Assembly (NCBI GenBank): GCA_022563505.1
Contig: JADFNG010000011.1
Span: 1-43,200, forward strand
Direction: 5' to 3'
Source of the DNA: Pseudomonadota bacterium
Lineage (GTDB): Bacteria > Pseudomonadota > Gammaproteobacteria > Steroidobacterales > Woeseiaceae
Length of the DNA stretch: 43,200 bases
The position numbers and the translations under genes are program-made. This document shows, in pieces, positions 24,346 to 42,949 of the stretch. Numbering within the stretch: the stretch's first letter is position 1; every line of letters starts with the position of its first letter. Below the pieces are notes generated by a model. The model saw only the letters and a program-made list of their open reading frames with translations. It did not search any database and was not told where the DNA came from.

Positions 24346-24786
24346 TTAGCTATCAGGCACGGCGGTTGCGGATTGTGCAGCAAGCATGGCCCGCATGCCG
24401 GACAGGTCATAGCCCGCTCCTGAAGTAGCCGCCAGCACGGCATCAACATCCAGCGTTTTGGCTTCAACTAACGCCCACAAAGAGATTGATCGTGAACCCG
24501 TACGACAGAATGCGAGTATCGGCCCCATCGCGCTCGAACAGGTGCTCGCAAAGTCTTCAATATTCTGTGCACTGATTTTTCCGGGCACGACCGGGATGTG
24601 GATATACGCCAGCCCCAGCGCTTCAGCCGCTGCCTCGATATCCGCTGAAGTTGGCTGACCCTGTACCTCATTATCCGGCCGGTTGTTAACAATGGTCTTG
24701 ATACCCTGCGCTGCAGCGATGCCAAGATCCGCAACCTCCAGTTGCCCAGCAACCGAGAAATGCGGGCTTACTTTCTTGATCTGCAT
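24346..24786 (-). CDS. DUF442 / TIGR01244 family sulfurtransferase-phosphatase-like protein
   Basis: A 146-residue cytoplasmic protein of the DUF442 family (also called the BLH N-domain), which has a dual-specificity-phosphatase-like fold. In sulfide-oxidation proteins it acts, as far as known, as a sulfurtransferase or persulfide partner. The P-loop-like FCRTGSRS with the nucleophilic Cys and Arg is at about residues 97-104, preceded by a NNRPDNE motif at about 34-40. It is encoded last in the operon behind the persulfide dioxygenase-like gene and a TauE exporter. In Xylella and Agrobacterium the DUF442 domain is fused to the dioxygenase (BLH); here it is free-standing. Overlap of activities is inference. 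Confidence 0.85.
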   Translation of the reverse strand: MQIKKVSPHFSVAGQLEVADLGIAAAQGIKTIVNNRPDNEVQGQPTSADIEAAAEALGLAYIHIPVVPGKISAQNIEDFASTCSSAMGPILAFCRTGSRSISLWALVEAKTLDVDAVLAATSGAGYDLSGMRAMLAAQSATAVPDS

Positions 24787-24804: not shown

Positions 24805-25587
24805 TCAGGCAGCGAGCCCAAGTGCATCCGGTAATGAACGGGCGAGAATGTAAATGCCCATGACGATAAGAAATATGCCGAAGCCTTTCTTTAGTTTATC
24901 CTGCTGCACACGATGTGCAATCCTCGCGCCGGCAATACTGCCGACGATTCCCAGTCCTGTCACCACCATCAAGGTGTTCCAGTCGAGCTGCAGGTTCTGT
25001 GCCTCCAGCACAGCAATATATTTGTAGAATCCGCTGTACGATTTCATGGCAATGATCAACAGGCTTGTCGCAACCGCACTGCGCATCGACAGACCAGCCA
25101 GCAGTACGAGGGCCGGAACAATCAGGAATCCGCCACCAACACCAACCAGGCCGGTAAGAATCCCGACGATCAGGCCATCGATTGCGATCTTCCACACCGG
25201 GCGGGGCGCATGGCCAGGCAGATCCAGATTCACCGGACGCAACATCATGTATGACGCCAGCAGCATCACTATGGCAAACATCGTCAACTGCACGATACCC
25301 GGAACATACGCCGCAATCATCGCGCCTGAATACGTACCGGCCATACCCGGCAAACCGAACACCAAGACAATGCGCCAGTCGATCAGGTTTGCTTTGAGGA
25401 ATTGCAGGCTGCCCGCCAGAGCAATGGTCCCAACAATAAACAGCGAACCGGCGATCGCGACTTTTTCGTCCTGGCCGATCAAGTAAACCAATACCGGTAC
25501 GGTCAGGATCGAACCACCGGAACCCAGCAAGCCCAGGCTAAGCCCGATCGCAATTGCACCGGGCCACGCGAGTATTGGTACTGGCAT
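24805..25587 (-). CDS. TauE/SafE family exporter in the persulfide operon
   Basis: A 260-residue inner-membrane protein of the TauE/SafE family, about eight membrane segments. Two inverted halves carry glycine motifs: SLGLLGSGGSILTVP (near residues 17-31) and GILTGLVGVGGGFLIVP (about 142-158), the second close to the family consensus. It is in the middle of an operon: 62 bases after the persulfide dioxygenase-like gene and 18 bases before the DUF442 gene. By analogy with BigR operons it probably exports sulfite, the product of persulfide oxidation. GAGGTC lies seven bases before ATG 25587. Confidence 0.9.
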   Translation of the reverse strand: MPVPILAWPGAIAIGLSLGLLGSGGSILTVPVLVYLIGQDEKVAIAGSLFIVGTIALAGSLQFLKANLIDWRIVLVFGLPGMAGTYSGAMIAAYVPGIVQLTMFAIVMLLASYMMLRPVNLDLPGHAPRPVWKIAIDGLIVGILTGLVGVGGGFLIVPALVLLAGLSMRSAVATSLLIIAMKSYSGFYKYIAVLEAQNLQLDWNTLMVVTGLGIVGSIAGARIAHRVQQDKLKKGFGIFLIVMGIYILARSLPDALGLAA

Positions 25588-25649: not shown

Positions 25650-26513
25650 TTACGGGAACCTGTTCAGCGGAATCTTCAGATAGCTTACGTTGTTGCCTTC
25701 CGGTGGTGGAAAGTGACCGGCGCGAATATTGACCTGGATAGACGGCAAAATAAGTTTTGGCATACCAAGCGTCGCATCGCGCTCCGTTCGAAAAGCGACA
25801 AACTCTTCCCGACTGATACCCACATGAATATTAATATTCCCTTCACGTTCTTCGGCAACCGTCGTTTCCCAGGCGAATTTATCCCGTCCGGGCGCCTTGT
25901 AGTCATGGCACATGAACAGGCGTGTACTCTCTGGTAACGCGAAAAGTTTTTGCACGGAGTCATACAACATCGCCGCATCACCGCCGGGGAAATCACAGCG
26001 CGCTGTCCCGTAGTCCGGCATGAAGAGCGTGTCGCCGACGAAGCAGGCATCGCCGAATACATAACTATTGCACACGGGCGTATGCCCTGGCGTGTGTATT
26101 ACGTATCCCTCGATACCGCCGAGCATGATGGTGGCACCGTCAGCCAGTAATTCATCGAAATGGCTGCCGTCATCTGGCACATCCTGCAGATTGAAAACGT
26201 CGTTAAATACCGTTTGTATGCTGCCTATGCCAACACCGATGCCAATCTTTCCGCCCAACTTTTCCTTGAGGTATTGCGCCGCAGTCAGGTGATCTGCGTG
26301 GACGTGAGTTTCGAGAATCCATTCGACCGTTAAGTCACCCGATTCTACAAAAGCCACCACGCCGTCGGCCGATTCGGTCGACGATCGGCCCGACGCCGCA
26401 TCGTAATCCAGCACCGGATCGATCACCGCACACTTCTTGCTGCCGGGATCCACGACAACATAGGTCACCGTAAAAGTCGCGTGATCGAAAAATGCTTTTA
26501 TGTCTGGATTCAT
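25650..26513 (-). CDS. Persulfide dioxygenase-like MBL-fold protein (BLH/ETHE1 type)
   Basis: A 287-residue cytoplasmic MBL-fold protein of the glutathione-persulfide dioxygenase group, which oxidises sulfane sulfur to sulfite. The motif THVHADH at 69-75 is complete, with HTPGHTP later and the FVGDTLF and CHDYK motifs; the CHDY segment and YVVVDPGSKKCAVIDPVLD start are hallmarks of ETHE1/BLH dioxygenases. AGGGGGG lies seven bases upstream of ATG 26513. It is the first gene of an operon with TauE and DUF442. The likely operator at 26594-26615 is 80 bases upstream, next to the divergent gene. No sulfide:quinone reductase gene is in the window to feed it. Confidence 0.9.
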   Translation of the reverse strand: MNPDIKAFFDHATFTVTYVVVDPGSKKCAVIDPVLDYDAASGRSSTESADGVVAFVESGDLTVEWILETHVHADHLTAAQYLKEKLGGKIGIGVGIGSIQTVFNDVFNLQDVPDDGSHFDELLADGATIMLGGIEGYVIHTPGHTPVCNSYVFGDACFVGDTLFMPDYGTARCDFPGGDAAMLYDSVQKLFALPESTRLFMCHDYKAPGRDKFAWETTVAEEREGNINIHVGISREEFVAFRTERDATLGMPKLILPSIQVNIRAGHFPPPEGNNVSYLKIPLNRFP

Positions 26514-26593: not shown

Positions 26594-26615
26594 TATATTA
26601 GAAAATACTAATATA
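26594..26615. promoter_or_regulatory. Putative ArsR/SqrR-type operator 1
   Basis: Perfect dyad TATATTAG-N6-CTAATATA between two divergent sulfur genes (25650-26513 minus and 26695-27648 plus). This is the clearest of five similar sites in the island. See also 27761, 27839, 40808 and 41515. Assigning it to the regulator at 41114 is inference from sequence similarity and gene content. Confidence 0.75.
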
Positions 26616-26694: not shown

Positions 26695-27648
26695 ATGCTT
26701 CGAACGTTACCGCCCTTGCTGATACTTGCACAAATTTTCGCGACCCCAGTGCGTGCCGATCAATTCATTGCTGACCAATACCCGAACTCAGTGCTTTACG
26801 CGAAGCCAATCGAGGTCATACCTGGCGTCTGGTCTGCCATTGGCGCCACCGCGCCGCCTGACTACGACAATGCCGGCCACAACAACAATCTCTCCTTCAT
26901 CGTCACAGGTGATGGCGTCATCGTCTTCAACAGCGGCGCCAGTTACCTGCTGGCAAAAGCGTTGCATGATGAAATCAGGAACATTACGGACCAGCCAGTG
27001 GCGCTTGTCGTCAACGAAAATGGCCAGGGGCATGCGATGCTGGGAAATGGATACTGGGTCGGACAAGGAGTGCCTGTCCTCGCGCACGAAGCCGCGGCTG
27101 AGGCATTTGAAGACGATGGCTACGGCTCGCTTGCGCGTCTGAAAGACTATGCAAAAGAGCAGTCTCTGGGGAGCACTGTTCAGGCACCTACCGAGGTGAT
27201 GACTGACACCCGCGTAATTGAGATGGGTGATTTTCGAATTGAGGTACGTTGGCTGGGAATTGCACATTCTCCGGGAGACCTTGTCATCTGGTTGCCGGAA
27301 CAACGCCTGGTGATTGCCGGCGACATGGCATTCCACGAGCGCCTGCTGCCCGTATTCGAAGATACGCAGACCCTTGAATGGCTACAAAGCTGGCAGCGGT
27401 TTGAAGATCTGGAAGCGCTGTATGTCATACCCGGGCATGGCCATCCAACCAACATGGCGCAAGTCAGACGTTACACGCGGGACTACCTGCTATTTGTTCG
27501 CGGCAAGGTGCAGGAACTTCTCGACGAAGGCGAAGACCTGCAGGCAGCCTACGAGATTGACCAGTCTGCCTATGCTCATTTACACACGTTCGATGAACTG
27601 GCGAAAAAGAATGCAGGCCGTATTTTCGAACAAATGGAATTTGAATAA
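26695..27648 (+). CDS. Exported MBL-fold protein lacking the first metal motif (SoxH-like)
   Basis: A 317-residue exported MBL-fold protein (signal peptide core TLPPLLILAQIFATPVRA). The fold marks are HNNNLSFIVTGDGVIVFNSG, the third-motif GIAHSPGDLVIWLP, the Asp in VIAGDMAF and the last His in PGHGHPT. However, the first motif, normally HxHxDH, reads NENGQGH (107-113), so the two Zn1 His ligands are Asn and Gln. The overall layout resembles SoxH-type proteins near sox genes. It may have altered metal content or activity. It sits under operator 1, divergent from the persulfide dioxygenase operon and followed by the YeeE-type permease genes. Confidence 0.8.
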   Translation: MLRTLPPLLILAQIFATPVRADQFIADQYPNSVLYAKPIEVIPGVWSAIGATAPPDYDNAGHNNNLSFIVTGDGVIVFNSGASYLLAKALHDEIRNITDQPVALVVNENGQGHAMLGNGYWVGQGVPVLAHEAAAEAFEDDGYGSLARLKDYAKEQSLGSTVQAPTEVMTDTRVIEMGDFRIEVRWLGIAHSPGDLVIWLPEQRLVIAGDMAFHERLLPVFEDTQTLEWLQSWQRFEDLEALYVIPGHGHPTNMAQVRRYTRDYLLFVRGKVQELLDEGEDLQAAYEIDQSAYAHLHTFDELAKKNAGRIFEQMEFE

Positions 27649-27838: not shown

Positions 27839-27861
27839 TATATATGAGAATGCTAATATAA
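27839..27861. promoter_or_regulatory. Putative operator 3
   Basis: TATATATG-N6-CTAATATA, 31 bases upstream of the permease start at 27892. The right half is identical to that of operator 1. The left half differs at two positions or would need a four-base spacer. Confidence 0.55.
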
Positions 27862-27891: not shown

Positions 27892-28428
27892 ATGCAAAAC
27901 GAACCGATTCTATCCTGGAAAGTCGCAGGATTGCTTTTGGGGCTGGTGCTTATCACCGCAACAGCACTCGTCAAACCCGTCGGCGTTTCAACCCAATACG
28001 TCGTGGCCAATGCCGTCGTTCTACACAGCGCCGCGCCCAATCTGGCGGAATCCAATGAGTATCTCGCCAAATACGGAGAAAAGAATGACTGGGGCGTCGG
28101 CTACGGCTGGATGTTTGTCGTCGGCATGTTCCTTGGCGGCTGGCTGTCCGCATTCATTACGAAACGTGTGCGCCAGCGCGAAACCCCGGCGCTGCCGCCC
28201 ATGTGGAAAGCTCAATTTGGTGCTTCTTCCCCGCGACGCATGATGCACGCCTTCATCGGCGGTGCGTTATTGCTGTTCGGCTCGCGCCTCGCCGGCGGCT
28301 GCACCAGCGGCCACATGATGAGTGGCATCTCACAACTCACCATCGGCTCTTTCGTCTTCGGCATTTCTATTTTCGTGTCGGGCATCATCACTGCCCGCAT
28401 GCTTTACAAAAAGAGGACCGCAGCATGA
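27892..28428 (+). CDS. YeeE/YedE family sulfur permease subunit, half 1
   Basis: A 178-residue inner-membrane protein with about four to five segments. It belongs to the YeeE/YedE (sulf_transp) family, whose full-size member TsuA takes up thiosulfate. It carries the conserved Cys motif GGCTSGHMMSG at about 141-151 and a GWMFVVGMFLGGWLSA segment. As the protein is half-size it probably pairs with the next gene's product, as do PmpA and PmpB. The GGGG ribosome binding site lies eight bases upstream of ATG 27892. Its stop overlaps the start of the second subunit as ATGA. Substrate (thiosulfate or another sulfur anion) is inferred from context. Confidence 0.88.
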   Translation: MQNEPILSWKVAGLLLGLVLITATALVKPVGVSTQYVVANAVVLHSAAPNLAESNEYLAKYGEKNDWGVGYGWMFVVGMFLGGWLSAFITKRVRQRETPALPPMWKAQFGASSPRRMMHAFIGGALLLFGSRLAGGCTSGHMMSGISQLTIGSFVFGISIFVSGIITARMLYKKRTAA

Positions 28429-28952
28429 ATCTCCTCATACTCGGACTCATTCTCGGCATGGCATTCGGCGCCATCCTGCAACTCGGCGGCGCATCCAGCT
28501 ACCACAAGATCGTCGGCACCCTGCTGCTGAAAGACATGGCCGTCATCAAACTCATTCTCATGGGAATTGCTATCGCCACCGTCGGTATCTATGCGCTCGA
28601 CCTCGTCGACATGGCTAACATGAGCATCAAACCGACCTACGTCGTCGGTATCGCCGTCGCCGGATTGATCTTCGGTGTTGGTTTCGCGGTCGCAGGTTAC
28701 TGTCCCGGCACTTGTATTGTTGCCGCCGCGGAAGGAAAGACCGATGCGGTAGTTACCATTGCAGGCGGATTGGCCGGCACATTGATTTATTCGCTGGTAT
28801 ACCCGGCGATGAAAGGACTGATTGGCATTACCAATTACGGCGAGGTCACCATTCCGAGTGCGTTGGGTGTTACGGGCTTGTGGGTCGCGATCCCGTTCAG
28901 TGCGGTATTGTTACTGCTGGTATTCAAGGTGTTGAAAGACCGGTACGAGTGA
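28425..28952 (+). CDS. YeeE/YedE family sulfur permease subunit, half 2
   Basis: A 175-residue inner-membrane protein with four to five segments and the second-half Cys motif GYCPGTCIVAAAEGK at about 95-109. It starts at ATG 28425, overlapping the stop of half 1 by four bases, with GAGGA upstream; the frame is open much further upstream only as a shadow of half 1. Together the two form one complete YeeE-like transporter. Split two-gene forms are common next to BigR/Sox-type genes. The transcript likely ends soon after 28952, where the ykvI-type gene converges. Confidence 0.88.
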   Translation: MNLLILGLILGMAFGAILQLGGASSYHKIVGTLLLKDMAVIKLILMGIAIATVGIYALDLVDMANMSIKPTYVVGIAVAGLIFGVGFAVAGYCPGTCIVAAAEGKTDAVVTIAGGLAGTLIYSLVYPAMKGLIGITNYGEVTIPSALGVTGLWVAIPFSAVLLLLVFKVLKDRYE

Positions 28953-33802: not shown

Positions 33803-34231
33803 TCAGGGTTTCACCAGCGTAAAACCCTCTGCCACACTTTCGATGATCTTCGCCACACCCGACCGTACGGGTCGGGCATACGGACTGACGTCCGGCCGCT
33901 GCCCGGTTTTTCGCTCCATGCTATCCAGTGTATTGTCACAGATATAAAATCGCACACCGTTGTCGATCATGCTTGCAATGCGTGCATCGTATTTACCGTC
34001 TTTGAACAGGAGTCGTACACCCGGGCCGAAGGTAACGATCTCAATATCGATAAAATCGGGACCGCCGTAATGCTCTATCAGATTATTGGCGACGTCGAGA
34101 ACGGACGATTCATGCTCCTGGTCACTTAGCTGGAGAACGACATGGACATCGGCGAAAGGTTTCTCATCCGCTCCTTCTTGCGCCCGGCTCAGGCTCATCG
34201 CTGCAAAGGCAAACGCCGCGATCAGCCACAA
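33803..34231 (-). CDS. Exported DsrE-family protein at the end of the sox operon
   Basis: A 142-residue DsrE/DsrF-like protein with a likely signal peptide (hydrophobic LWLIAAFAFAAMSLSRAQ). The domain has VHVVLQLSDQEHESSVLDVANNLIEHYG and FYICDNTL, the latter holding the probable active Cys, as in sulfur-relay DsrE proteins. It is 29 bases after soxB, so it likely belongs to the sox operon and may bind or transfer sulfane sulfur in the periplasm. No ATG or GTG start exists: TTG 34231 is used but it cuts the positively charged start. Residues KINLRSG just upstream are in frame and follow an AAGGAAAA site. Confidence 0.78.
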   Translation of the reverse strand: MWLIAAFAFAAMSLSRAQEGADEKPFADVHVVLQLSDQEHESSVLDVANNLIEHYGGPDFIDIEIVTFGPGVRLLFKDGKYDARIASMIDNGVRFYICDNTLDSMERKTGQRPDVSPYARPVRSGVAKIIESVAEGFTLVKP

Positions 34232-34260: not shown

Positions 34261-36021
34261 TTACTCCAGCAAATTCGAATAGTCGGCAATGCCCGCATTG
34301 CCGGAAATATTACGCAATTTCGGTGTATTCAGTTTATTCACCGTAATTATCTTCTTGTCTTTTAGATACTCGGCCACGACCTCCCATACTGGCGGCCCCG
34401 GCGATTCAGAGCCCACGGTCGCCCAGCCGGCCACTTTGTAATTCTTGCCGGCATCCAGTGTACGGCCGTCATCCAGGGTCAGGTCGGAGATACGGGAATC
34501 CATTTTTGCGGTCGGGTCGCAACTGAAGTTCAGGCCACCGAGGCGGACCATGTCGCCACCCTGCTGATAATAAGGATCCTTATGGAACAGATTATCGGCA
34601 ACGCTTTCGAGAATCATTTTGAGTTCAGCGCCTGACATTTCGCGGGAGTAAGTCTCCGGATACGTCATCGCTGTCTGATCCATGACACGTTCCATCGTAA
34701 TCGTATCGCCGGGAAGAACCGAGGTGCCCCAGCGGAATCCTGGCGACAAGGATATCTCCGCGTCAGCCACTTCCATCAATGCATCGCAAATGACCTGGTC
34801 AAAGGTGCCGTTAAAATTACCGCGTCGATAAAGCAGCGTTCCGGCAACAGCCAATGGCTCTTCCAGCTTGTCCAGATACGGTTTTCTAACGCCGTCGATG
34901 TAAGCCTGCATGCCGGCATCTGCGGGGAGCAGGTTAGCGAATACCGGCAACAGGCGATAACGATAGCCCTTCACTTTTCCCTTGCCGATATCGAGATCGA
35001 GTACCGCCAGAAACTTTCCGTTCGATCCGGCGTTGGTAACCAGGGTCTTGCCCCCGGAATTTTCGACAACGATGGGCTGCGGTACACCGTCGTGGGTGTG
35101 GCCACCAAGAATTGCATCCACGCCGCTGACTCGACTCGCCATTTTGACGTCGACATCCATGCCATTATGCGACAGTACGATGACTGCATCCGGCTTCTCA
35201 GTATCACGCACGTGCTCGACCATTTCCTGCATATCATCGTCGCGGATTCCAAACGTCCAGTCCGGTATGAAGCGCCGGGGATTTGCGATCGGTGTATATG
35301 GAAATGCCTGGCCAATGATTGCGATGCGATGGCCGCCGACCTCGTGCATGGAATACGGTTTGAAAACGTGGCCGCTGTCTTCGTCGTAAGCCGATACACC
35401 ATCAAATAATGCGTCTTCGGTGACGCGGACATTCTGCGCGATGAATTCACCGTTGAAACGCTCGATATTCTGCAGCACTTCTTCGGCACGATAGGTGAAT
35501 TCCCAGTGACCGGTCATGACATCGACACCCAGCAAATTACAGGCATCGACCATGTCCTTGCCGCGTGTCCAGAGCGACGTCGCTGATCCCTGCCACGTAT
35601 CGCCTCCATCGAGCAACAGCGAGTTTCCATCGCCCACTTCCGCACGTTGCCGGTCTATCAGGGTCTTCAAATGTGCGAAGCCACCAACTTTTCCAAACTT
35701 CTCTGCAGCAGCGGCAAAATCAAGATACGTCAATGCATAGGCGTCACGGCCGCCCCTGGCAGTGCCGATATGATCCAGCAGATGCTGCCCGACCAGGTGT
35801 GGAGGCCGACCGGCCGCGCCACCGATACCAATATTGACATTGGGCTCACGAAAATAGATCGGTGTTAGCTGGGCGTGACAATCCGTAAAATGCAATAAAC
35901 GAACATTGCCGAATGAGGCAGATTCATACGGATCATCACGCAATTCGCCACGAACACACCCGGACAAAAGACCGGCTGAACTGGCGCAACCCAACATCCA
36001 AACGAAGTCCCGCCGATTCAC
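34261..36021 (-). CDS. soxB: Thiosulfohydrolase SoxB
   Basis: A 586-residue periplasmic dimanganese enzyme that hydrolyses the terminal sulfonate of SoxY-bound sulfur to sulfate. The N-terminus has a twin-arginine motif NRRDFVWMLG and a Cys-containing SGC site. Metal-binding motifs of the 5'-nucleotidase-like fold are visible: LLHFTDCHAQL, LLDGGDTWQGSATSLW (SoxB-specific), GHWEFTYR, LSHNGMDVD and GGHTHDG. A C-terminal 5'-nucleotidase-like domain follows. GTG 36021 is the start, with GAGGAG nine bases upstream. Length is standard. It is preceded by soxK and followed by the DsrE-like gene. Confidence 0.97.
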   Translation of the reverse strand: MNRRDFVWMLGCASSAGLLSGCVRGELRDDPYESASFGNVRLLHFTDCHAQLTPIYFREPNVNIGIGGAAGRPPHLVGQHLLDHIGTARGGRDAYALTYLDFAAAAEKFGKVGGFAHLKTLIDRQRAEVGDGNSLLLDGGDTWQGSATSLWTRGKDMVDACNLLGVDVMTGHWEFTYRAEEVLQNIERFNGEFIAQNVRVTEDALFDGVSAYDEDSGHVFKPYSMHEVGGHRIAIIGQAFPYTPIANPRRFIPDWTFGIRDDDMQEMVEHVRDTEKPDAVIVLSHNGMDVDVKMASRVSGVDAILGGHTHDGVPQPIVVENSGGKTLVTNAGSNGKFLAVLDLDIGKGKVKGYRYRLLPVFANLLPADAGMQAYIDGVRKPYLDKLEEPLAVAGTLLYRRGNFNGTFDQVICDALMEVADAEISLSPGFRWGTSVLPGDTITMERVMDQTAMTYPETYSREMSGAELKMILESVADNLFHKDPYYQQGGDMVRLGGLNFSCDPTAKMDSRISDLTLDDGRTLDAGKNYKVAGWATVGSESPGPPVWEVVAEYLKDKKIITVNKLNTPKLRNISGNAGIADYSNLLE

Positions 36022-36071: not shown

Positions 36072-36401
36072 CTACTCAAGAACAAGGTTGGCTTTCCACT
36101 CTTTCTTCTGGGATATCGACTGTGCCAGGGCCAGCTCGGCCTGCAATCTGGCCTCGTTCGCCAATTCGATTGCGTCGTCTGTTCGCCCTTCGTCATACGC
36201 AGTTTTTGATTGCTCAAGAATACCGTCCGTCTTGCTCCAGGCATTTCGATTCGCTTCGGCTGCCGCTAGCGCTGCCTCAGCCGCCGCGTAAGATTCTGCG
36301 AAGGTGGCACTCGGCAACGCAATATCACTATCGGACGACTCCTGCCCGCAACCTGCCAGAGCGGAAATACAGATCGTGACGAACGCGTATTTTCTGATCA
36401 T
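36072..36401 (-). CDS. soxK: SoxXA-binding protein SoxK (lipoprotein)
   Basis: A 109-residue lipoprotein that binds the SoxAX cytochrome complex and supports its activity. The lipobox is LAGC at residues 15-18. The body is almost pure helix, rich in Ala and charged residues (SYAAAEAALAAAEANRNAW, then ILEQSKTAYDEGRTDDAIEL), as known for SoxK/SAXB. AGGAATCACA precedes ATG 36401. The position, between soxA and soxB, is the usual one for the gene. Confidence 0.88.
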   Translation of the reverse strand: MIRKYAFVTICISALAGCGQESSDSDIALPSATFAESYAAAEAALAAAEANRNAWSKTDGILEQSKTAYDEGRTDDAIELANEARLQAELALAQSISQKKEWKANLVLE

Positions 36402-36423: not shown

Positions 36424-37260
36424 TTAACGTCGGGACCCGGGTCCGTTCAGTTCAAGACCATTGCTGATATACGACAGAAAATATTCAAGGTTGCGATATT
36501 CGACACTCTGCGCTTCGAGCGGCTTGGCCCACACTTGCGAATTACATTCGGCAAAGCGTTTTTGAAGCGTGCCGATTTCGCCCCATTTCGAGCGATAGAC
36601 AGGCCAGTGAGTCGCCTGACCTAATGTCGTGCTCAAGCGGTCGGCTCTTAATTTCAATCCAGCGGATTGTATGTGGCAACTGCTGCACGCGAAATTCAAC
36701 TGGCCTCTGCGCGTGTAGTAAAATTGCTTTCCCGCCGCGTAGGCAGCTACGGCTCCCGTATTATCCGACGGTACCTGTACCGCCATTTCATTGCCACGCG
36801 ACGTGTAAGCCATGTAAGCCGAAATTTCTGCGAGTGGCCCAATCATGTAAGGAAGCGCTTCCTCGTCGTTGGCCTCGCGACAATGATTGATCGCCAGCTC
36901 CAGCGTAACGACTTCGCCCGCATCCGTGTCAAAATACGGATAGTTCTGTTTCACGCCAATGCCACCATTCTCGAAACAGTCCGCATACGATTTGCCATTG
37001 GCGAACGGTGTTTCAAAAAGCGCCTGACCGTCTTCGATCGCAATTTCATAGGGAGGAAAATCCTCCATCTCAATCCACTGCTCGCGCGCTATCGTGTCAA
37101 AGGCATAAAGGCCGTTCGCAAACTCTTGCAACGGCACATCAGGAAAACGGTCACTGTAGTATTCCACCATCGCCAGTCGATCCTCTTCCGGACCTGCCAT
37201 TGCGGTCAGGCCGCACAACAGTCCGCCGATCAAACACAGTGGAAAAATTATTTTTTTCAA
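36424..37260 (-). CDS. soxA: SoxA, catalytic cytochrome of the SoxAX complex
   Basis: A 278-residue periplasmic c-type cytochrome that, with SoxX, joins thiosulfate to the SoxY cysteine. It is a monoheme type: CSSCH at 192-196, with a Cys95/Cys127 pair that would form the disulfide replacing the first heme. The active-site Cys ligand is Cys239 in RFAECNSQVWAKPLEAQSV. A signal peptide precedes (core IIFPLCLIGGLLCGLTAMA). The start is TTG 37260, supported by GGAG eight bases upstream. It follows soxZ and precedes soxK by 22 bases. Confidence 0.95.
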   Translation of the reverse strand: MKKIIFPLCLIGGLLCGLTAMAGPEEDRLAMVEYYSDRFPDVPLQEFANGLYAFDTIAREQWIEMEDFPPYEIAIEDGQALFETPFANGKSYADCFENGGIGVKQNYPYFDTDAGEVVTLELAINHCREANDEEALPYMIGPLAEISAYMAYTSRGNEMAVQVPSDNTGAVAAYAAGKQFYYTRRGQLNFACSSCHIQSAGLKLRADRLSTTLGQATHWPVYRSKWGEIGTLQKRFAECNSQVWAKPLEAQSVEYRNLEYFLSYISNGLELNGPGSRR

Positions 37261-37308: not shown

Positions 37309-37623
37309 CTATTTGAGCACCACTTCCTTCTCGCTGGAGTCGCCCTTGTTATCGTTCCAGCGAAGTGTGACGGTATCTCCCGCCACCGCGCCTTTTATCG
37401 AAAACGATACGTAGGGATTCTTCGATACGGCCTGTCCCCAATACGCCGTCATGACAACTTCACCGTTTAATTCCGCCACGAAATCCGTGATGTAGTGGGC
37501 CGGATACGGCTGGTTGGTTGCCGGATTCATACGCAGTCCGGATTCCATGTCATGCGGCATGAGCGCCTTGATTTCGGCGAAATCGCCTTTGATTTTTGCC
37601 CTGATCTTGATTGGTTTACCCAT
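37309..37623 (-). CDS. soxZ: SoxZ, partner of SoxY carrier
   Basis: A 104-residue small beta-sandwich protein that forms the SoxYZ carrier heterodimer in the periplasm; it has no signal and is exported with SoxY. Motifs include MPHDMESGLRMN, PYPAHYITDF and SKNPYVSFSIKGA. ATG 37623 is chosen (AGGA upstream); the longer frame to 37683 overlaps soxY. It begins 25 bases after the soxY stop. Confidence 0.95.
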   Translation of the reverse strand: MGKPIKIRAKIKGDFAEIKALMPHDMESGLRMNPATNQPYPAHYITDFVAELNGEVVMTAYWGQAVSKNPYVSFSIKGAVAGDTVTLRWNDNKGDSSEKEVVLK

Positions 37624-37648
37624 TAATCCTGTCCTCAATGAGCTTCTG

Positions 37649-38089
37649 TCAGCCGCCGCAGCCGCCAATGGTGACTTTGACATCTCTCGACGTGCTGTAG
37701 AGTGTTCCGCCAGCCTTCACCAGTGCGAGCACCTGTGAGCTTTGACCCATCTTGATGCGCACTGATACGATGGGGACCATCCGCGGGCCCATGTCGAACG
37801 AAGCGACGAACGGCGTCGGATTGTTGACCACCACAATACTGATCGACTCTACATCCGCGAGATCGGTGCTGACCGTAACCGGCACGACGGCACCGTTCTC
37901 GGCGATATCCGGAATTTTGAGTTTAATCTGCTCGCTCGCCACCGGCATCTGGCCAAACACGGCCATGATGGCATCTTCGGCATTGTCCGCAATGAACGCA
38001 GCATCAGGCCGCGAAGCCCACAACAGGCGCGGCCATGCAGCCATTGCGCCCAGAGCAACAATACCTTTTAGTAGAAGCCTTCTGTGCAC
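37649..38089 (-). CDS. soxY: SoxY, sulfur-carrier protein
   Basis: A 146-residue periplasmic protein that carries sulfur intermediates on a C-terminal cysteine. The swinging-arm GGCGG ends the protein exactly. The twin-arginine signal HRRLLLKG is at residues 2-9, needed for export of the folded SoxYZ dimer. The body is a small Ig-like domain (VESISIVVVNNPTPFVASF). GTG 38089 is used, with GAGGAG nine bases upstream. Confidence 0.96.
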   Translation of the reverse strand: MHRRLLLKGIVALGAMAAWPRLLWASRPDAAFIADNAEDAIMAVFGQMPVASEQIKLKIPDIAENGAVVPVTVSTDLADVESISIVVVNNPTPFVASFDMGPRMVPIVSVRIKMGQSSQVLALVKAGGTLYSTSRDVKVTIGGCGG

Positions 38090-38109: not shown

Positions 38110-38466
38110 TTACAGGGTATGAATGAAATCGACCACAAGATCGATTTCTTCTTCAGTCAGAATTCGATGCCGGCCATAGGGCGGCATACGGGTTGTCGGC
38201 TCCCTGATCGAGGCATCCCATATCTTGGATCGCAGGTCGGCCCGATCAGGGTAGCGCACTTTCATCTTGAGCAGTGGCGGTCCGTAATTGCCAGCCAACT
38301 CGCCACCTTTTATCACGTGGCACGCAAGGCAATTCCCCCTGCCGCGTTCGAACACAATCGCCTTGCCGCGCTCGATTGCGTCCTCGTCCGGCTGCACCTC
38401 GTCTGCCAGACCATACTGTGTACCCGCTAACAACGACAGTAATGAAATTGTCAGGATCAGTCGCAT
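38110..38466 (-). CDS. soxX: SoxX, monoheme cytochrome of the SoxAX complex
   Basis: A 118-residue periplasmic cytochrome c. Heme motif CLACH at 46-50 and Met94 in RMPPYG as likely axial ligand fit SoxX. A Sec signal (core LILTISLLSLLAG) precedes. AGGGGG lies nine bases upstream of ATG 38466. It comes between soxD and soxY, 22 bases after the former. Confidence 0.93.
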   Translation of the reverse strand: MRLILTISLLSLLAGTQYGLADEVQPDEDAIERGKAIVFERGRGNCLACHVIKGGELAGNYGPPLLKMKVRYPDRADLRSKIWDASIREPTTRMPPYGRHRILTEEEIDLVVDFIHTL

Positions 38467-38488: not shown

Positions 38489-39448
38489 CTAATTCGCGGT
38501 TACTTCAAGCATATAGTCTACCGCAGCAATAACGTCTTCATCACTGAGTTGTATCTGACCGCCCTTGGGTGGCATCTGGCCCTTGCCGGCCAGTGCGTTC
38601 GCAATCAGGGCCTCACGACCCGCGTCGATACGTGCCGCCCAGGTGCTTGCATCGCCGGGTATCGGGGCGTCGCCGACGCCGCTCGCATGGCATAACGCGC
38701 ATGCTTGCTCATAAGTCGATTGGCCGCTCGCAGCCTCCGCCCCACTGGCCTCGACAACGTCCGAATCTACTTCCTCGGTGGCCGGTGGCGCCGACGTAAT
38801 CCTGATGCTTGCAGGATCCTTGCAATTACTCATGCAAGCTTCGTTGCTCGTGTCCGGACGGTCGTCCAGGAAAAATCCGTCCTTGTTCGGCATTTCGATC
38901 AAGGCAAGATTGTCCTGGGTCAGTTTAAAATCGTACTCCACCAGGTCATTCAGGTAGAGCACGTAGGCGGTCAATGCATACACCTCCTGATCGCTCAACG
39001 ACTCCGGCTGCATGAACGGCATGGCACGATGAATGTAGTCCCATACGGTGCTCGCGTAGGGCCAGTAACTGCCAATGGTTTTCTCGGGGCGATCCTCGCT
39101 GAGCGTACCCTCACCACCCGCAAGCACCGGGTATCGGCCAACCCCCTCACCGAACGATCCGTGGCAAAGTGCGCACTGATCTTCGTACAGCATTTCGCCG
39201 TCTTCCGCCGTGGCGCCGCCGGGTGGCAAACCCATGCCGTCCGGTCGTATGTCAATATCCCAGCCGGCAATTTCCTCGACACTGGCATCCTGGCCGTAGC
39301 CGAAATAGCCGCTTGGCTGCGCAACCGGCGCGTTGAATTCCGTGATCGTGATCTCACCGGCAGAATCATTCTTGCCGGCGGCATCCGCCGCACAGGCGGA
39401 CAGGCTGAACGCAGCCAGAACGAGCGACAGTCTAGCTAATCTGTACAT
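38489..39448 (-). CDS. soxD: SoxD, diheme cytochrome subunit of sulfur dehydrogenase
   Basis: A 319-residue diheme cytochrome that takes electrons from SoxC. Heme motifs are CALCH at 92-96 and a second CALCH near residue 252. The block WDIDIRPDGMGLPPGG is typical of SoxD. A Cys-containing LSAC at 16-19 looks like a lipobox, so this SoxD may be lipid-anchored. The linker between the two domains is Ala/Glu rich. Its ATG 39448 overlaps the soxC stop by 17 bases. Confidence 0.92.
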   Translation of the reverse strand: MYRLARLSLVLAAFSLSACAADAAGKNDSAGEITITEFNAPVAQPSGYFGYGQDASVEEIAGWDIDIRPDGMGLPPGGATAEDGEMLYEDQCALCHGSFGEGVGRYPVLAGGEGTLSEDRPEKTIGSYWPYASTVWDYIHRAMPFMQPESLSDQEVYALTAYVLYLNDLVEYDFKLTQDNLALIEMPNKDGFFLDDRPDTSNEACMSNCKDPASIRITSAPPATEEVDSDVVEASGAEAASGQSTYEQACALCHASGVGDAPIPGDASTWAARIDAGREALIANALAGKGQMPPKGGQIQLSDEDVIAAVDYMLEVTAN

Positions 39449-40754
39449 TGGTCACTGTCCCGTCTGCATGCAATCGCCAGGTGTGGATCGCGTTGCGGTG
39501 ATAAATCGAACTCATGCCACGCGCCGCGCGTAACTGGGTAAATGTAGGCTGTACGTAGCCCGTCTCATCGACTGCCCGACTCTGAATCATTGCCGGGCTG
39601 CCGTCCCAGTCCCAATCCAGTCCAAATCGTGTTAGCGCCTTGGGCAATACCAGGCCCTTCAGCCGCGCAGGTCGCCAGTTCACTCCACCATCGAAAGACA
39701 CATCCACACGCTTGATCTTGCCGGTCCCGGACCACGCCAGTCCTGCAACTTCATAACGACCTTTGTCTTGCAGAGGTTTCTCCGGACACGGGAAGGTGAC
39801 GACCGAGTTGCACTCCTGCACGTAGGAAAACTTTCGTGCGCGACCATCCGCGAGCAGGTCGGTATATTTCGAGGTTTCTTCACGCTGATACCAGGCCTTG
39901 TCACCCACTTCCAGGCGGCGCAACCACTTGACGCTGGTATTGCCTTCCCAGCCCGGATTAAAGAGGCGTATCGGATAGCCTTGTTCCGGTCGCAGTGGTT
40001 CACCGTTCTGGGCATAAACAACGAGGGCATCATCCATCGCCTTGTCCAGGGGAATGGAACGACTCATGTGAGACCCGTCCGCGCCTTCTGCAAGCACCCA
40101 GGCAGCGTCTTTCTGCAGCCCGACTTCCTGCAAAATGGTCGACAGCAGGACGCCTGTCCACTCACAACAGCTCAGCATGCCATGGGTAAACTGCAGCGCG
40201 TCCATTTGCGCCGCGCGCCACTCCATGCCGCCATTGGCCGGACATTCGAGAAAGCGGATCATCGATGTGCTTGGGAAACGCCGCAGGTCATCGATAGTGA
40301 GAATAACGGGTCGATCCACCATGCCGTGGATCATCAGCCGGTGATCGTCCGGATCGATGTCCGGAATGCCGCTGTGATAACGCTCGAAGACCAGGCTGCT
40401 CGGCGTGATAATGCCGTCCAACTCGGCCAGTGGTGTGAAACTGATGGATGCAAATCGATCCGCCGTCAGCCAGGGCACGGCACGACGCTGGATGTTGCCC
40501 TCAAACCGGGATGGCTTGCCGTATGGGTTGGTCAGCACGCCCTGCCCCAGCGATCGCGTCCAGGCAGGGACGTTGGGCGGCAAATTCTCTTCCGCGGCGT
40601 TCACCTTGCCACTGATGGCACCACCGGTCATCGCACTACCGGCCAGCAACAAGCCGTTTTTCAGAAAATTCCGTCGCTCAGCCTGCGGTAACTTCTGACC
40701 TTCGTCAGAAATCCGCTGCAGCATTTGTGCGGTCGTTGCAGTTTTCGATGCCAT
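39432..40754 (-). CDS. soxC: SoxC, molybdenum subunit of sulfur dehydrogenase
   Basis: A 440-residue periplasmic molybdoprotein of the sulfite oxidase family. With SoxD it oxidises SoxY-bound sulfane sulfur, so thiosulfate can go fully to sulfate without sulfur globules. The molybdenum-ligand Cys is in RFLECPANGG (Cys171). A twin-arginine signal ERRNFLKNGLLLAG is near residue 26. The second half is a dimerisation domain with VDVSFDGGVNW. ATG 40754 is chosen; GTG 40763 is an in-frame alternative. It is the first gene of the sox operon, 54 bases downstream of the strong operator at 40808. Confidence 0.95.
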   Translation of the reverse strand: MASKTATTAQMLQRISDEGQKLPQAERRNFLKNGLLLAGSAMTGGAISGKVNAAEENLPPNVPAWTRSLGQGVLTNPYGKPSRFEGNIQRRAVPWLTADRFASISFTPLAELDGIITPSSLVFERYHSGIPDIDPDDHRLMIHGMVDRPVILTIDDLRRFPSTSMIRFLECPANGGMEWRAAQMDALQFTHGMLSCCEWTGVLLSTILQEVGLQKDAAWVLAEGADGSHMSRSIPLDKAMDDALVVYAQNGEPLRPEQGYPIRLFNPGWEGNTSVKWLRRLEVGDKAWYQREETSKYTDLLADGRARKFSYVQECNSVVTFPCPEKPLQDKGRYEVAGLAWSGTGKIKRVDVSFDGGVNWRPARLKGLVLPKALTRFGLDWDWDGSPAMIQSRAVDETGYVQPTFTQLRAARGMSSIYHRNAIHTWRLHADGTVTNVQIS

Positions 40755-40807
40755 CGAGCCCACCCGATTTGCCTGAAATTTATAGGGTCTTTAGGCCCAT
40801 ATCCATG

Positions 40808-40830
40808 TATATTAGGAAATCCTAACATAA
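40808..40830. promoter_or_regulatory. Putative ArsR/SqrR-type operator 4
   Basis: TATATTAG-N6-CTAACATA between divergent soxC (minus) and the ArsR regulator region (plus). Left half is identical to that of operator 1; right half is one base off. The position is suited to control both the whole sox operon and the regulator itself. Confidence 0.72.
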
Positions 40831-41113: not shown

Positions 41114-41434
41114 ATGGAATTAATGGGCGAATTCGATATGGAACAGATGAGTGTGGCGGCGGAAAAAGCCAGCGCACTGATGAAAACACTGGGTCATAAG
41201 GGCCGACTGATGATTTTGTGCCAGCTCGCCACTGGCGAAAAATCCGTGGGTGAACTGGCCAGGAATCTCGACATGCCACAATCACCGCTTTCGCAACATT
41301 TATCACGCATGCGAAAAGAAGGCCTGGTCGGGACACGGCGCGAAGCCCAGACCATTTTTTACTCGTTAAAAGCTGATGAGGTTGGAAAAATAATTGAGTG
41401 TCTCTACAGCCTTTATTGCGCCGATGATGCCTAG
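41114..41434 (+). CDS. ArsR-family repressor, SqrR/BigR/YgaV-like
   Basis: A 106-residue winged-helix regulator. It matches the persulfide/sulfide-sensing branch: Cys36 in RLMILCQL and Cys102 in LYSLYC are 66 residues apart, the same spacing as Cys41 and Cys107 of Rhodobacter SqrR. The recognition helix region is PQSPLSQHLSRMRKEGLV. In known members persulfide forms a tetrasulfide or disulfide between these cysteines and releases DNA. An additional Cys96 is present. AAGGAAG lies seven bases upstream of ATG 41114. It is divergent from soxC and probably autoregulated through operator 4. Confidence 0.88.
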   Translation: MELMGEFDMEQMSVAAEKASALMKTLGHKGRLMILCQLATGEKSVGELARNLDMPQSPLSQHLSRMRKEGLVGTRREAQTIFYSLKADEVGKIIECLYSLYCADDA

Positions 41435-41514
41435 TACTCCGTCAACACCGCAGAGCAGCAGACTAAAAGCCTTGTACGGCGCAGCAATAGTTGCAGAAAT
41501 TCGGTGTTTCTACT

Positions 41515-41536
41515 TATATTAGATTTCCCTACATTA
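41515..41536. promoter_or_regulatory. Putative operator 5
   Basis: TATATTAG-N6-CTACATTA, 43 bases upstream of the FadL-like gene start. The left half is identical to operators 1 and 4; the right half is diverged. Confidence 0.6.
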
Positions 41537-41578
41537 CATTTTCTTAATTTAATGAGCCAGAATCAGGGGAAGTCAAAA

Positions 41579-42949
41579 ATGGAATCCATCAAGAAACTCG
41601 CTATCACACTATTAACTGTCGCCCTCACCCTTGCCTCAGGCAGCGCGTCAGCCACCAACGGTTACTTCACCCACGGCACCGGAACAAAAAACAAGGGCAT
41701 GGCGGGCGCTGGCATAGCCATGCCGGAAGACGCCATCGCCATGGCAAATAATCCGGCGGCAGCCCTGTTTACCACCGGGCGTATCGCCGCGGGCGCAGCG
41801 CTTTTCAGTCCCCGGCGCAGCTACAAGTCCAGCGCGAGTCAGTTGAACGGTACCATGGGCACTTTTACCATTGGCCCGAACAACATCGACAGTGCGCGGG
41901 ATTACTTTGTCATTCCCCATGTTGCCTATGCGTGGAAACTGAGTGAAGAAAGTGCGTTGGGTGTCGCATTCTACGGACGCGGCGGCATGAACACCGAGTG
42001 GGATGGCGGCAGCGCGACACTCGATCCGGATGGCCCCGGACCGGCTCCGGTCACGACCTTCACCGGCACCTTCGGTGGCGGTACTGCAGGCGTGGATTTC
42101 TCCCAGGCATTTCTCGATTTGACGTATGCCAGAAAGGCCGGCGATAACTTCGCCTGGGGTGTGTCGCTGGTCTCCGTCGTACAGACGTTCAAGGCCAAAG
42201 GACTTATCCAGTTCTCAGGGTTTACGGAGTCCTTCGTCGCGAGCGGCTTTACGCAACCACCGCAGAATCTGACCAGCAATGGACACGACTATGCATTCGG
42301 CGTCGGTGGAAAATTCGGCTTCCAGGCCGAATTGAGCCCCACAGTCAGTCTGGCAGCCATGTATCAAACAGAGATTTCCATGGGAGAATTCGACGATTAT
42401 GCGGACCTGTTCGCAGAACAGGGCGGATTTGATATTCCTGCCAACGCAAAAGTCGGCCTGACCTTTCGCCCGACAGACACGACCGCAGTGAGCCTCGATG
42501 TCGAACACACCTGGTTCAGTGAAGTGGCTGCCGTCGGCAATTCCTTCTCCAACCTGTTTAACTGCCCGAGCCTCGGTGGCACGGATATCGCTTCCTGTCT
42601 CGGCGGCGATAATGGCGCCGGTTTCGGCTGGGATGATATGACCACGTACAAAGTGGGCATCGAGTGGGGACGCGGTTCCGACATGGTATGGAGAGCAGGT
42701 ATCAGCCATGGCGAGCAACCGATCAAAAGCTCCGAGGTCATGTTCAACATTCTGGCCCCGGCCGTCATCGAAGATCACATTACCTTCGGCTTTACGAAGA
42801 AAATGAGGCAAGGTAACGAATTAAGCGTCGCCCTGATGTACGCACCGAATGGTGATGTGACCGGACCGAACCCGTTTGATCCCACCCAGTCCATCAAGAT
42901 TGAAATGTACCAGTGGGAAGTTGAGGTGGGTTATCGCTGGGGCAACTGA
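41579..42949 (+). CDS. FadL/TodX-type outer-membrane transport protein
   Basis: A 456-residue outer-membrane beta-barrel of the FadL (OmpP1/TodX) family, which lets hydrophobic substrates cross. A Sec signal ends near ASGSASA, followed by TNGYFTHGTGTKNKGMAGAGIAM; the N-terminal NGY and NPAA (residues about 54-60) are FadL-family hallmarks. The C-terminus VEVGYRWGN has the aromatic/strand ending of outer-membrane barrels. ATG 41579 is selected for GGGGAAG eight bases upstream and because it begins the signal; the frame is open to 41504. Regulation with sox genes is suggested by operator 5. Substrate is unknown. Confidence 0.88.
   Translation: MESIKKLAITLLTVALTLASGSASATNGYFTHGTGTKNKGMAGAGIAMPEDAIAMANNPAAALFTTGRIAAGAALFSPRRSYKSSASQLNGTMGTFTIGPNNIDSARDYFVIPHVAYAWKLSEESALGVAFYGRGGMNTEWDGGSATLDPDGPGPAPVTTFTGTFGGGTAGVDFSQAFLDLTYARKAGDNFAWGVSLVSVVQTFKAKGLIQFSGFTESFVASGFTQPPQNLTSNGHDYAFGVGGKFGFQAELSPTVSLAAMYQTEISMGEFDDYADLFAEQGGFDIPANAKVGLTFRPTDTTAVSLDVEHTWFSEVAAVGNSFSNLFNCPSLGGTDIASCLGGDNGAGFGWDDMTTYKVGIEWGRGSDMVWRAGISHGEQPIKSSEVMFNILAPAVIEDHITFGFTKKMRQGNELSVALMYAPNGDVTGPNPFDPTQSIKIEMYQWEVEVGYRWGN

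Follow-up and report, generated by a model that had tools for sequence, protein, structure and literature searches.

Gene organization of the window

The window, the whole 43,200-nucleotide stretch analyzed in this study, is derived from contig JADFNG010000011.1 of a gammaproteobacterium of the family Woeseiaceae (genome G000). It carries soxH, a gene for an exported MBL-fold protein, together with the following genes and sites.

24346–24786, minus strand: Blh phosphatase-like/sulfurtransferase domain, encoded by its own gene (PF04273, TIGR01244)
24805–25587, minus strand: TauE/SafE sulfite-exporter family protein (PF01925, 4.8e-48)
25650–26513, minus strand: pdo, persulfide-dioxygenase-type MBL protein, C-terminal half of Blh (NF040641, 374.7 bits, profile positions 141–423, below the full-length cut-off)
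26595–26614, no strand: palindromic operator between pdo (minus) and soxH (plus), no mismatches, with an orthologous perfect site in G001
26695–27648, plus strand: soxH, exported MBL-fold protein of 317 aa (60% identity to Paracoccus pantotrophus SoxH; within the SoxH clade)
26695–26757, plus strand: predicted signal peptide, residues 1–21 (read by eye: hydrophobic core, cleavage between VRA and DQ)
27840–27859, no strand: operator-like site 5′ of the first YeeE-type half gene, two mismatches
27892–28428, plus strand: YeeE/YedE-type transporter, half gene 1 (PF04143, 4.7e-17)
28203–28952, plus strand: YeeE/YedE-type transporter, half gene 2, a mechanical ORF (PF04143, 8.1e-14, residues 107–244)
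33803–34231, minus strand: exported DsrE-like protein (PF02635, 8.2e-6)
34261–36021, minus strand: soxB (TIGR04486, 860.8 bits)
36072–36401, minus strand: SoxAX-binding protein candidate (NF052674, 46.3 bits, below the cut-off of 95)
36424–37260, minus strand: soxA (TIGR04484, 230.2 bits)
37309–37683, minus strand: soxZ (TIGR04490, 119 bits)
37649–38089, minus strand: soxY (TIGR04488, 154.5 bits)
38110–38466, minus strand: soxX (TIGR04485, 87.3 bits)
38489–39448, minus strand: soxD-type diheme cytochrome c, adjoining soxC (two cytochrome c matches)
39432–40763, minus strand: soxC (TIGR04555, 651.6 bits)
40809–40828, no strand: operator-like site 5′ of soxC, one mismatch, also present in G001
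41114–41434, plus strand: ArsR/BigR-type repressor (NF033788, above the cut-off; BigR model, 95.9 bits, below the cut-off of 155)
41516–41535, no strand: weaker operator-like site at the start of a 481-aa ORF, three mismatches, weak when taken alone

The fused Blh sulfurtransferase/dioxygenase is split here into two genes (24346–24786 and 25650–26513) with the TauE/SafE gene in between, and the pdo product has relatives with solved structures. The true start of the second YeeE/YedE-type half gene is probably downstream of 28203; L003, from another genome of the order, likewise has a half gene of this type close to soxH. Two more genes for SoxC-type sulfite dehydrogenases scored over the cut-off in G000 (C119:2319–3512 and C76:11417–12637). 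The ORF at 41504–42949, which has the weak sox operator-like site at its 5′ end, encodes an exported protein of 481 aa resembling FadL-type outer-membrane porins, and no NCBIfam match to it was found.

Product and putative regulation of soxH

The soxH ORF opens with a Sec-type signal peptide, MLRTLPPLLILAQIFATPVRA followed by DQ, as judged by eye from the sequence. Pfam family PF00753 (Lactamase_B) matched the product with a value of 5e-8 over residues 118–248 only, i.e., past the motif-1 loop. The ORF, its signal peptide, and the Pfam match confirm the proposal of an earlier note on this DNA that the gene encodes an exported MBL-fold protein. The predicted structural model had a pLDDT of 89.6 and a pTM of 0.86, with pLDDT values below 50 for residues 1–6 and 13–22. 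No homolog of SoxH was found among viral contigs.

The operator palindrome, ATATTAG-N6-CTAATAT, occurs as ATATTAGAAAATACTAATAT at 26595–26614, and this is the sole perfect match in the 2.6-Mb genome, in line with the earlier assignment of soxH to the strongest putative operator. The window contains four operator sites, a number that was reached in none of 100 shuffles of the window. When up to three mismatches were allowed, the pattern occurred 23 times in G000 versus 30 times for the reversed control and was hence not enriched, so that a site was regarded as firm only if it deviated from the palindrome at no more than one position. Both genomes of the genus, G000 and G001, have all of their firm sites on the contig with the sox genes, the perfect site being the one 5′ of soxH. 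The ArsR-type repressor encoded at 41114–41434 is the probable owner of the operators. SoxR-type repressors of sulfur oxidizers are responsive to sulfane sulfur (PMC12423496). The signal peptide and the BigR-type operator are consistent with a periplasmic location and thiosulfate induction of SoxH. In a sister genome (L031:12060–12157), three operator-like sites were observed within 100 bases 3′ of soxH, compared with one in the window.

Identification of SoxH and its linkage to sox genes

Plasmid pPAN3 of P. pantotrophus (L111) carries a soxF-cluster gene for a flavoprotein, followed by genes for a 303-aa MBL protein with HGHPDH and a 317-aa MBL protein with NENGQGH. We take the last ORF to be the SoxH of the literature, based on the gene order soxF-soxG-soxH and the published lengths of SoxG (303 aa) and SoxH (317 aa). 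The window protein, also 317 aa long, is 60.1% identical to this protein over all 317 residues. The identity, combined with the gene order on pPAN3, identifies the window protein as SoxH, and its position within the SoxH clade (support of 100/100) agrees with this assignment.

The genes from soxB to soxC in the window, which belong to the Sox pathway of thiosulfate oxidation, are 6.6–13 kb away from soxH. To assess this linkage in relatives, we counted the 51 loci at which soxH is flanked on each side by 8 kb or more of sequence. At least two sox genes were found at 45 of them, soxF at 31, a YeeE-type transporter gene at 30, and a soxG-type MBL gene (cluster 5) at 27. At the other six loci, no sox genes were found within 8–10 kb of soxH; one of these, L031, has soxB and soxY further off on the contig. 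At L154, which is from a gammaproteobacterium outside this family, soxH is in line with soxB and with DsrE-like, HbpS-like, and thioredoxin-like genes. In a phylum sample of 398 genomes, SoxY exceeded the cut-off in all eight SoxH-bearing genomes versus 59 of the 398 overall (Fisher test, 1.5e-7, relatedness ignored), and SoxC was found in seven of the eight versus 43 overall (relatedness likewise ignored). On the other hand, 51 of the 59 SoxY-positive genomes lacked SoxH, which makes SoxH an accessory protein dispensable for the core cycle.

Replacement of motif 1 and state of the other metal-site motifs

Homologs were collected from one genome per species by using the peptide patterns FE[AQK]MEFE and E[VF]IP[GH]VWS, both of which lie outside motif 1. 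The scan yielded 326 relatives, of which 80 were kept, and together with three further sequences these gave an alignment of 83 SoxH proteins (pairwise identity: median 72%, lowest 56%). The metal-site features of the window protein and their conservation in this alignment are as follows.

26878–26889, plus strand: H62-N63-N64-N65 loop, invariant (83/83)
26929–26931, plus strand: N79 at the conserved second-shell Asp (BBL 84) in strand VVID, Asn in 83/83
27013–27036, plus strand: motif 1, NENGQGHA, residues 107–114, in place of HxHxDH (Q111, G112, and H113 in 83/83; N109 and A114 in 82/83)
27265–27279, plus strand: motif 3, H191-S-P-G-D195, H191 corresponding to BBL 196 (H191, G194, and D195 in 83/83)
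27322–27336, plus strand: motif 4, D210-M-A-F-H214, D210 being the BBL 221 equivalent (D210 and H214 in 83/83)
27436–27438, plus strand: motif 5, H248, corresponding to BBL 263 (83/83)

Motif 1 was aligned without gaps between a canonical relative (L008), VINTHVHPDHLLGN, and the window SoxH, VVNENGQGHAMLGN, and the wider alignment agreed. In this register, H116, H118, D120, and H121 of the canonical motif are replaced by N109, Q111, H113, and A114, respectively, so that SoxH has N-x-Q-x-H-A where dizinc MBL hydrolases have HxHxDH. H113 was also considered as the last His of HxHxDH, a placement ruled out by the alignment, in which H113 occupies the position of D120, the Zn2 Asp. At the BBL 84 position, Asp was found in all 24 relatives compared (five with GGQDH and 19 canonical), whereas SoxH has Asn (N79). 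The His of the HNNN loop is missing in both the GGQDH sister clade and the canonical relatives. In contrast to motif 1, the equivalents of H196, D/C221, and H263 in motifs 3, 4, and 5 are present as the invariant H191, D210, and H248.

The earlier note had described NENGQGH (residues 107–113) as a replacement of HxHxDH in which both Zn1 histidines of motif 1 became Asn and Gln, with the later motifs retained. The replacement itself stands, the two histidines are indeed N109 and Q111, and HSPGD (residues 191–195), AGD (208–210), and GHGH (247–250) are all present; the register, however, had to be corrected, since the surviving His lies on the Zn2 Asp position. The note had omitted this placement of the His and the changed second-shell Asp84.

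Conservation and phylogeny of the replaced motif

All 80 kept relatives have E-x-x-Q-G-H. The 83-protein alignment shows no variation at H62, N63–N65, N79, E108, Q111, G112, H113, H191, D195, D210, H214, and H248, and 82 of the proteins have N109. The dN/dS ratio of SoxH against the same-genus ortholog was 0.084, and the residues of the site are under purifying selection. In the maximum-likelihood tree, the ENGQGH-bearing proteins formed one clade with support of 100/100, and relatives with GGQDHR joined this clade next, with support of 100/96 for the joint branch. The remaining relatives, taken from a phylum-wide sample and from nearer genomes, keep H118 and D120 where the site is properly aligned.

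The motif is thus fixed in every SoxH examined, which makes it a trait of the whole family and the label "zinc metallohydrolase" doubtful. The homology check suggested in the earlier note turned out positive: Q111, G112, and H113 are kept in all 83 proteins, and most of the well-flanked loci contain sox genes. A random scatter of degenerate copies, which that note had named as the outcome speaking against its view, is excluded by the retention of the motif in 83 homologs forming a single clade. Its proposal of a distinct subfamily linked to sulfur oxidation was correct in that the motif is conserved, clade-defining, and sulfur-linked; the subfamily is not new, since the clade is SoxH, which was already named in the work on the sox genes of Paracoccus. 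We have little doubt that SoxH carries a rebuilt site throughout the clade, and the metal site of this known family was apparently rebuilt once.

Possible role of SoxH and alternative explanations

To our knowledge, SoxH has no established function after more than 20 years. It is usually labeled a zinc metallohydrolase (PMC10221251; for its relatives, PMC12997753). The invariant replacement and its apparent single origin with the sister clade make this label unsafe for SoxH. In the literature searched, which covers few subscription papers, no description of the replaced zinc signature and no biochemical study of SoxH were found. N79, N109, Q111, H113, H191, D210, and H248 are the residues for a mutational and metal test.

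The best overall explanation, to which we assign a probability of roughly 0.5, is that SoxH is a periplasmic accessory protein of the sox regulon with a single metal and a role toward an adduct on SoxYZ. The loss of two of the three Zn1 ligands suggests that SoxH would hold at most one metal ion; this ion could be bound by H113, H191, D210, and H248, with weaker binding or an altered preference (Zn or Cu). The chances of such a single-metal site are about even. SoxH may act on a sulfur adduct on the carrier arm of SoxYZ, as an accessory hydrolase or a repair enzyme. This choice of substrate is tentative and is based on gene neighborhood and co-occurrence; it is favored because SoxYZ-type carriers are a common partner of SoxH and its "SoxH-related" kin. 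A sulfurtransferase role through a cysteine of SoxH was ruled out, because no Cys is conserved: mature SoxH contains no Cys in 73 of the 83 proteins, and no alignment column has more than six. Thus, SoxH itself is not a persulfide carrier. Rother and coworkers reportedly found in 2001 that each subunit of purified P. pantotrophus SoxH contained about 0.29 Zn along with 0.20 Cu, compared with about 0.90 Zn for SoxG. Such contents would agree with a single site that binds metal weakly or takes a metal other than zinc and, equally, with a protein that needs no metal; SoxH may be metal-free in the cell. The use of one metal, the use of a different metal, and binding rather than hydrolysis of a substrate, all of which the earlier note had raised, are compatible with the present findings. 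It is also possible, although we would not bet on it, that an ancestral swap shared by SoxH and the GGQDH sister clade (H118 to Gln and D120 to His) gave rise to a novel His3Asp site for one metal, perhaps copper, and that its chemistry on sulfur held by a carrier differs from that of known MBL-fold enzymes.

Among the alternatives, a misread sequence or a decayed gene copy might be suspected in a draft assembly of 135 contigs. However, all 83 homologs, which come from both isolates and MAGs, carry the motif, and together with the intact reading frames and the dN/dS of 0.08 this makes the explanation practically negligible. SoxH could instead be a pseudo-enzyme that binds a ligand or partner, such as a SoxYZ-interacting chaperone or a sensor of sulfur compounds. 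The loss of H116, H118, D120, H121, and D84 and the SoxH-specific invariant HNNN loop would suit this role, whereas the invariant H191, D210, and H248 and the new invariant His at position 120 form the pattern of a metal site that is kept, and we consider a pseudo-enzyme somewhat unlikely.

An ordinary zinc hydrolase that tolerates the changes and removes sulfate or sulfonate from SoxY is less likely still. The intact fold and motifs 3–5 speak for it, as do the published suggestion of this hydrolysis for Sulfurovum SoxH (PMC10045233), which may or may not be a member of this clade, and the induction by thiosulfate of a gene named soxH1. However, SoxB, which is responsible for that step, is encoded in the window, and the motif-1 ligands are missing in every SoxH member. 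The divergence of the persulfide-dioxygenase gene from the same operator could point to an ETHE1-like enzyme that acts on a persulfide with the help of iron and oxygen, its 2-His-1-carboxylate triad being rearranged. The MBL-fold enzyme ETHE1 contains a single iron, which is bound by a triad of the motif-1 His, the motif-3 His, and the motif-4 Asp (PMC4383860). SoxH does not have the ETHE1/PDO iron triad, as its motif-1 histidines are Asn and Gln and the first of them, the one used by ETHE1, is the Asn; moreover, SoxH is predicted to be periplasmic, and the neighboring gene already provides persulfide-dioxygenase activity. These points render an ETHE1-like reaction highly improbable. The single-metal accessory protein of the sox regulon remains our preferred reading.

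Comparison with known systems

The GGQDHR sister clade (e.g., L112, L128, and L131) shares Q118, H120, and the same three later ligands with SoxH but differs in having Gly116, Arg121, and the retained Asp84 and in lacking the HNNN loop. We know of no function for this clade. SoxY was found in all four GGQDH genomes of the sample (p = 4e-4), although there are only a few such genomes, some of them related to each other, and the GGQDH genes do not adjoin sox genes. Members were located at L112:5914–6834, L153:8184–9017, L151:7976–8890, L152:8648–9619, and L150:8389–9225; two of these five adjoin genes for ArsR and for permeases of the ArsP or SBF type, and the gene in L112 is near a gene for the large subunit of arsenate reductase (azurin).

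The best NCBIfam matches of SoxH were TIGR04558 and TIGR04559, the "SoxH-related" quinoprotein relay metallohydrolases, with scores of 126.3 and 142.6 bits, below the respective cut-offs of 300 and 280. These kin occur with SoxYZ-like carriers and quinoproteins (PMC12997753). The canonical relatives L008 and L009 have an acidic C-terminal ending of the E-W-E type in common with SoxH but, unlike SoxH, contain HxHxDH.

In terms of fold likeness only, the nearest solved structures were 8d2z (Z = 32.5), 6uxu (31.0), and the B2 enzymes CphA and Sfh-I (approximately 26), and chlorothalonil dehalogenase was among the folds closest to the SoxH model. Motif 1 of 8d2z is HYHAVR, which is also non-canonical, with Val at the D120 position. 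SoxH scored below the beta-lactamase cut-offs (51.8 of 200 bits for bla_subclass_B1 and 37.9 of 240 for B2). B2 enzymes have Asn116 and are active with one zinc (PMC5018959), so that loss of the first site is a known route in the MBL fold. CphA and Sfh-I resemble SoxH in fold and in Asn at position 116, but they keep H118, D120, and C221 and are 15–19% identical to it; because SoxH lacks both H118 and D120, the analogy is partial.

SoxG of P. pantotrophus is similar to SoxH in being an MBL-fold product of a neighboring sox gene but differs in keeping HGHPDH. P. pantotrophus SoxH (soxFGH) and the window SoxH are alike in length, in NENGQGH, in export, and in linkage to sox genes, whereas the window soxH has no adjoining soxG or soxF and lies instead beside a divergent persulfide-dioxygenase gene.
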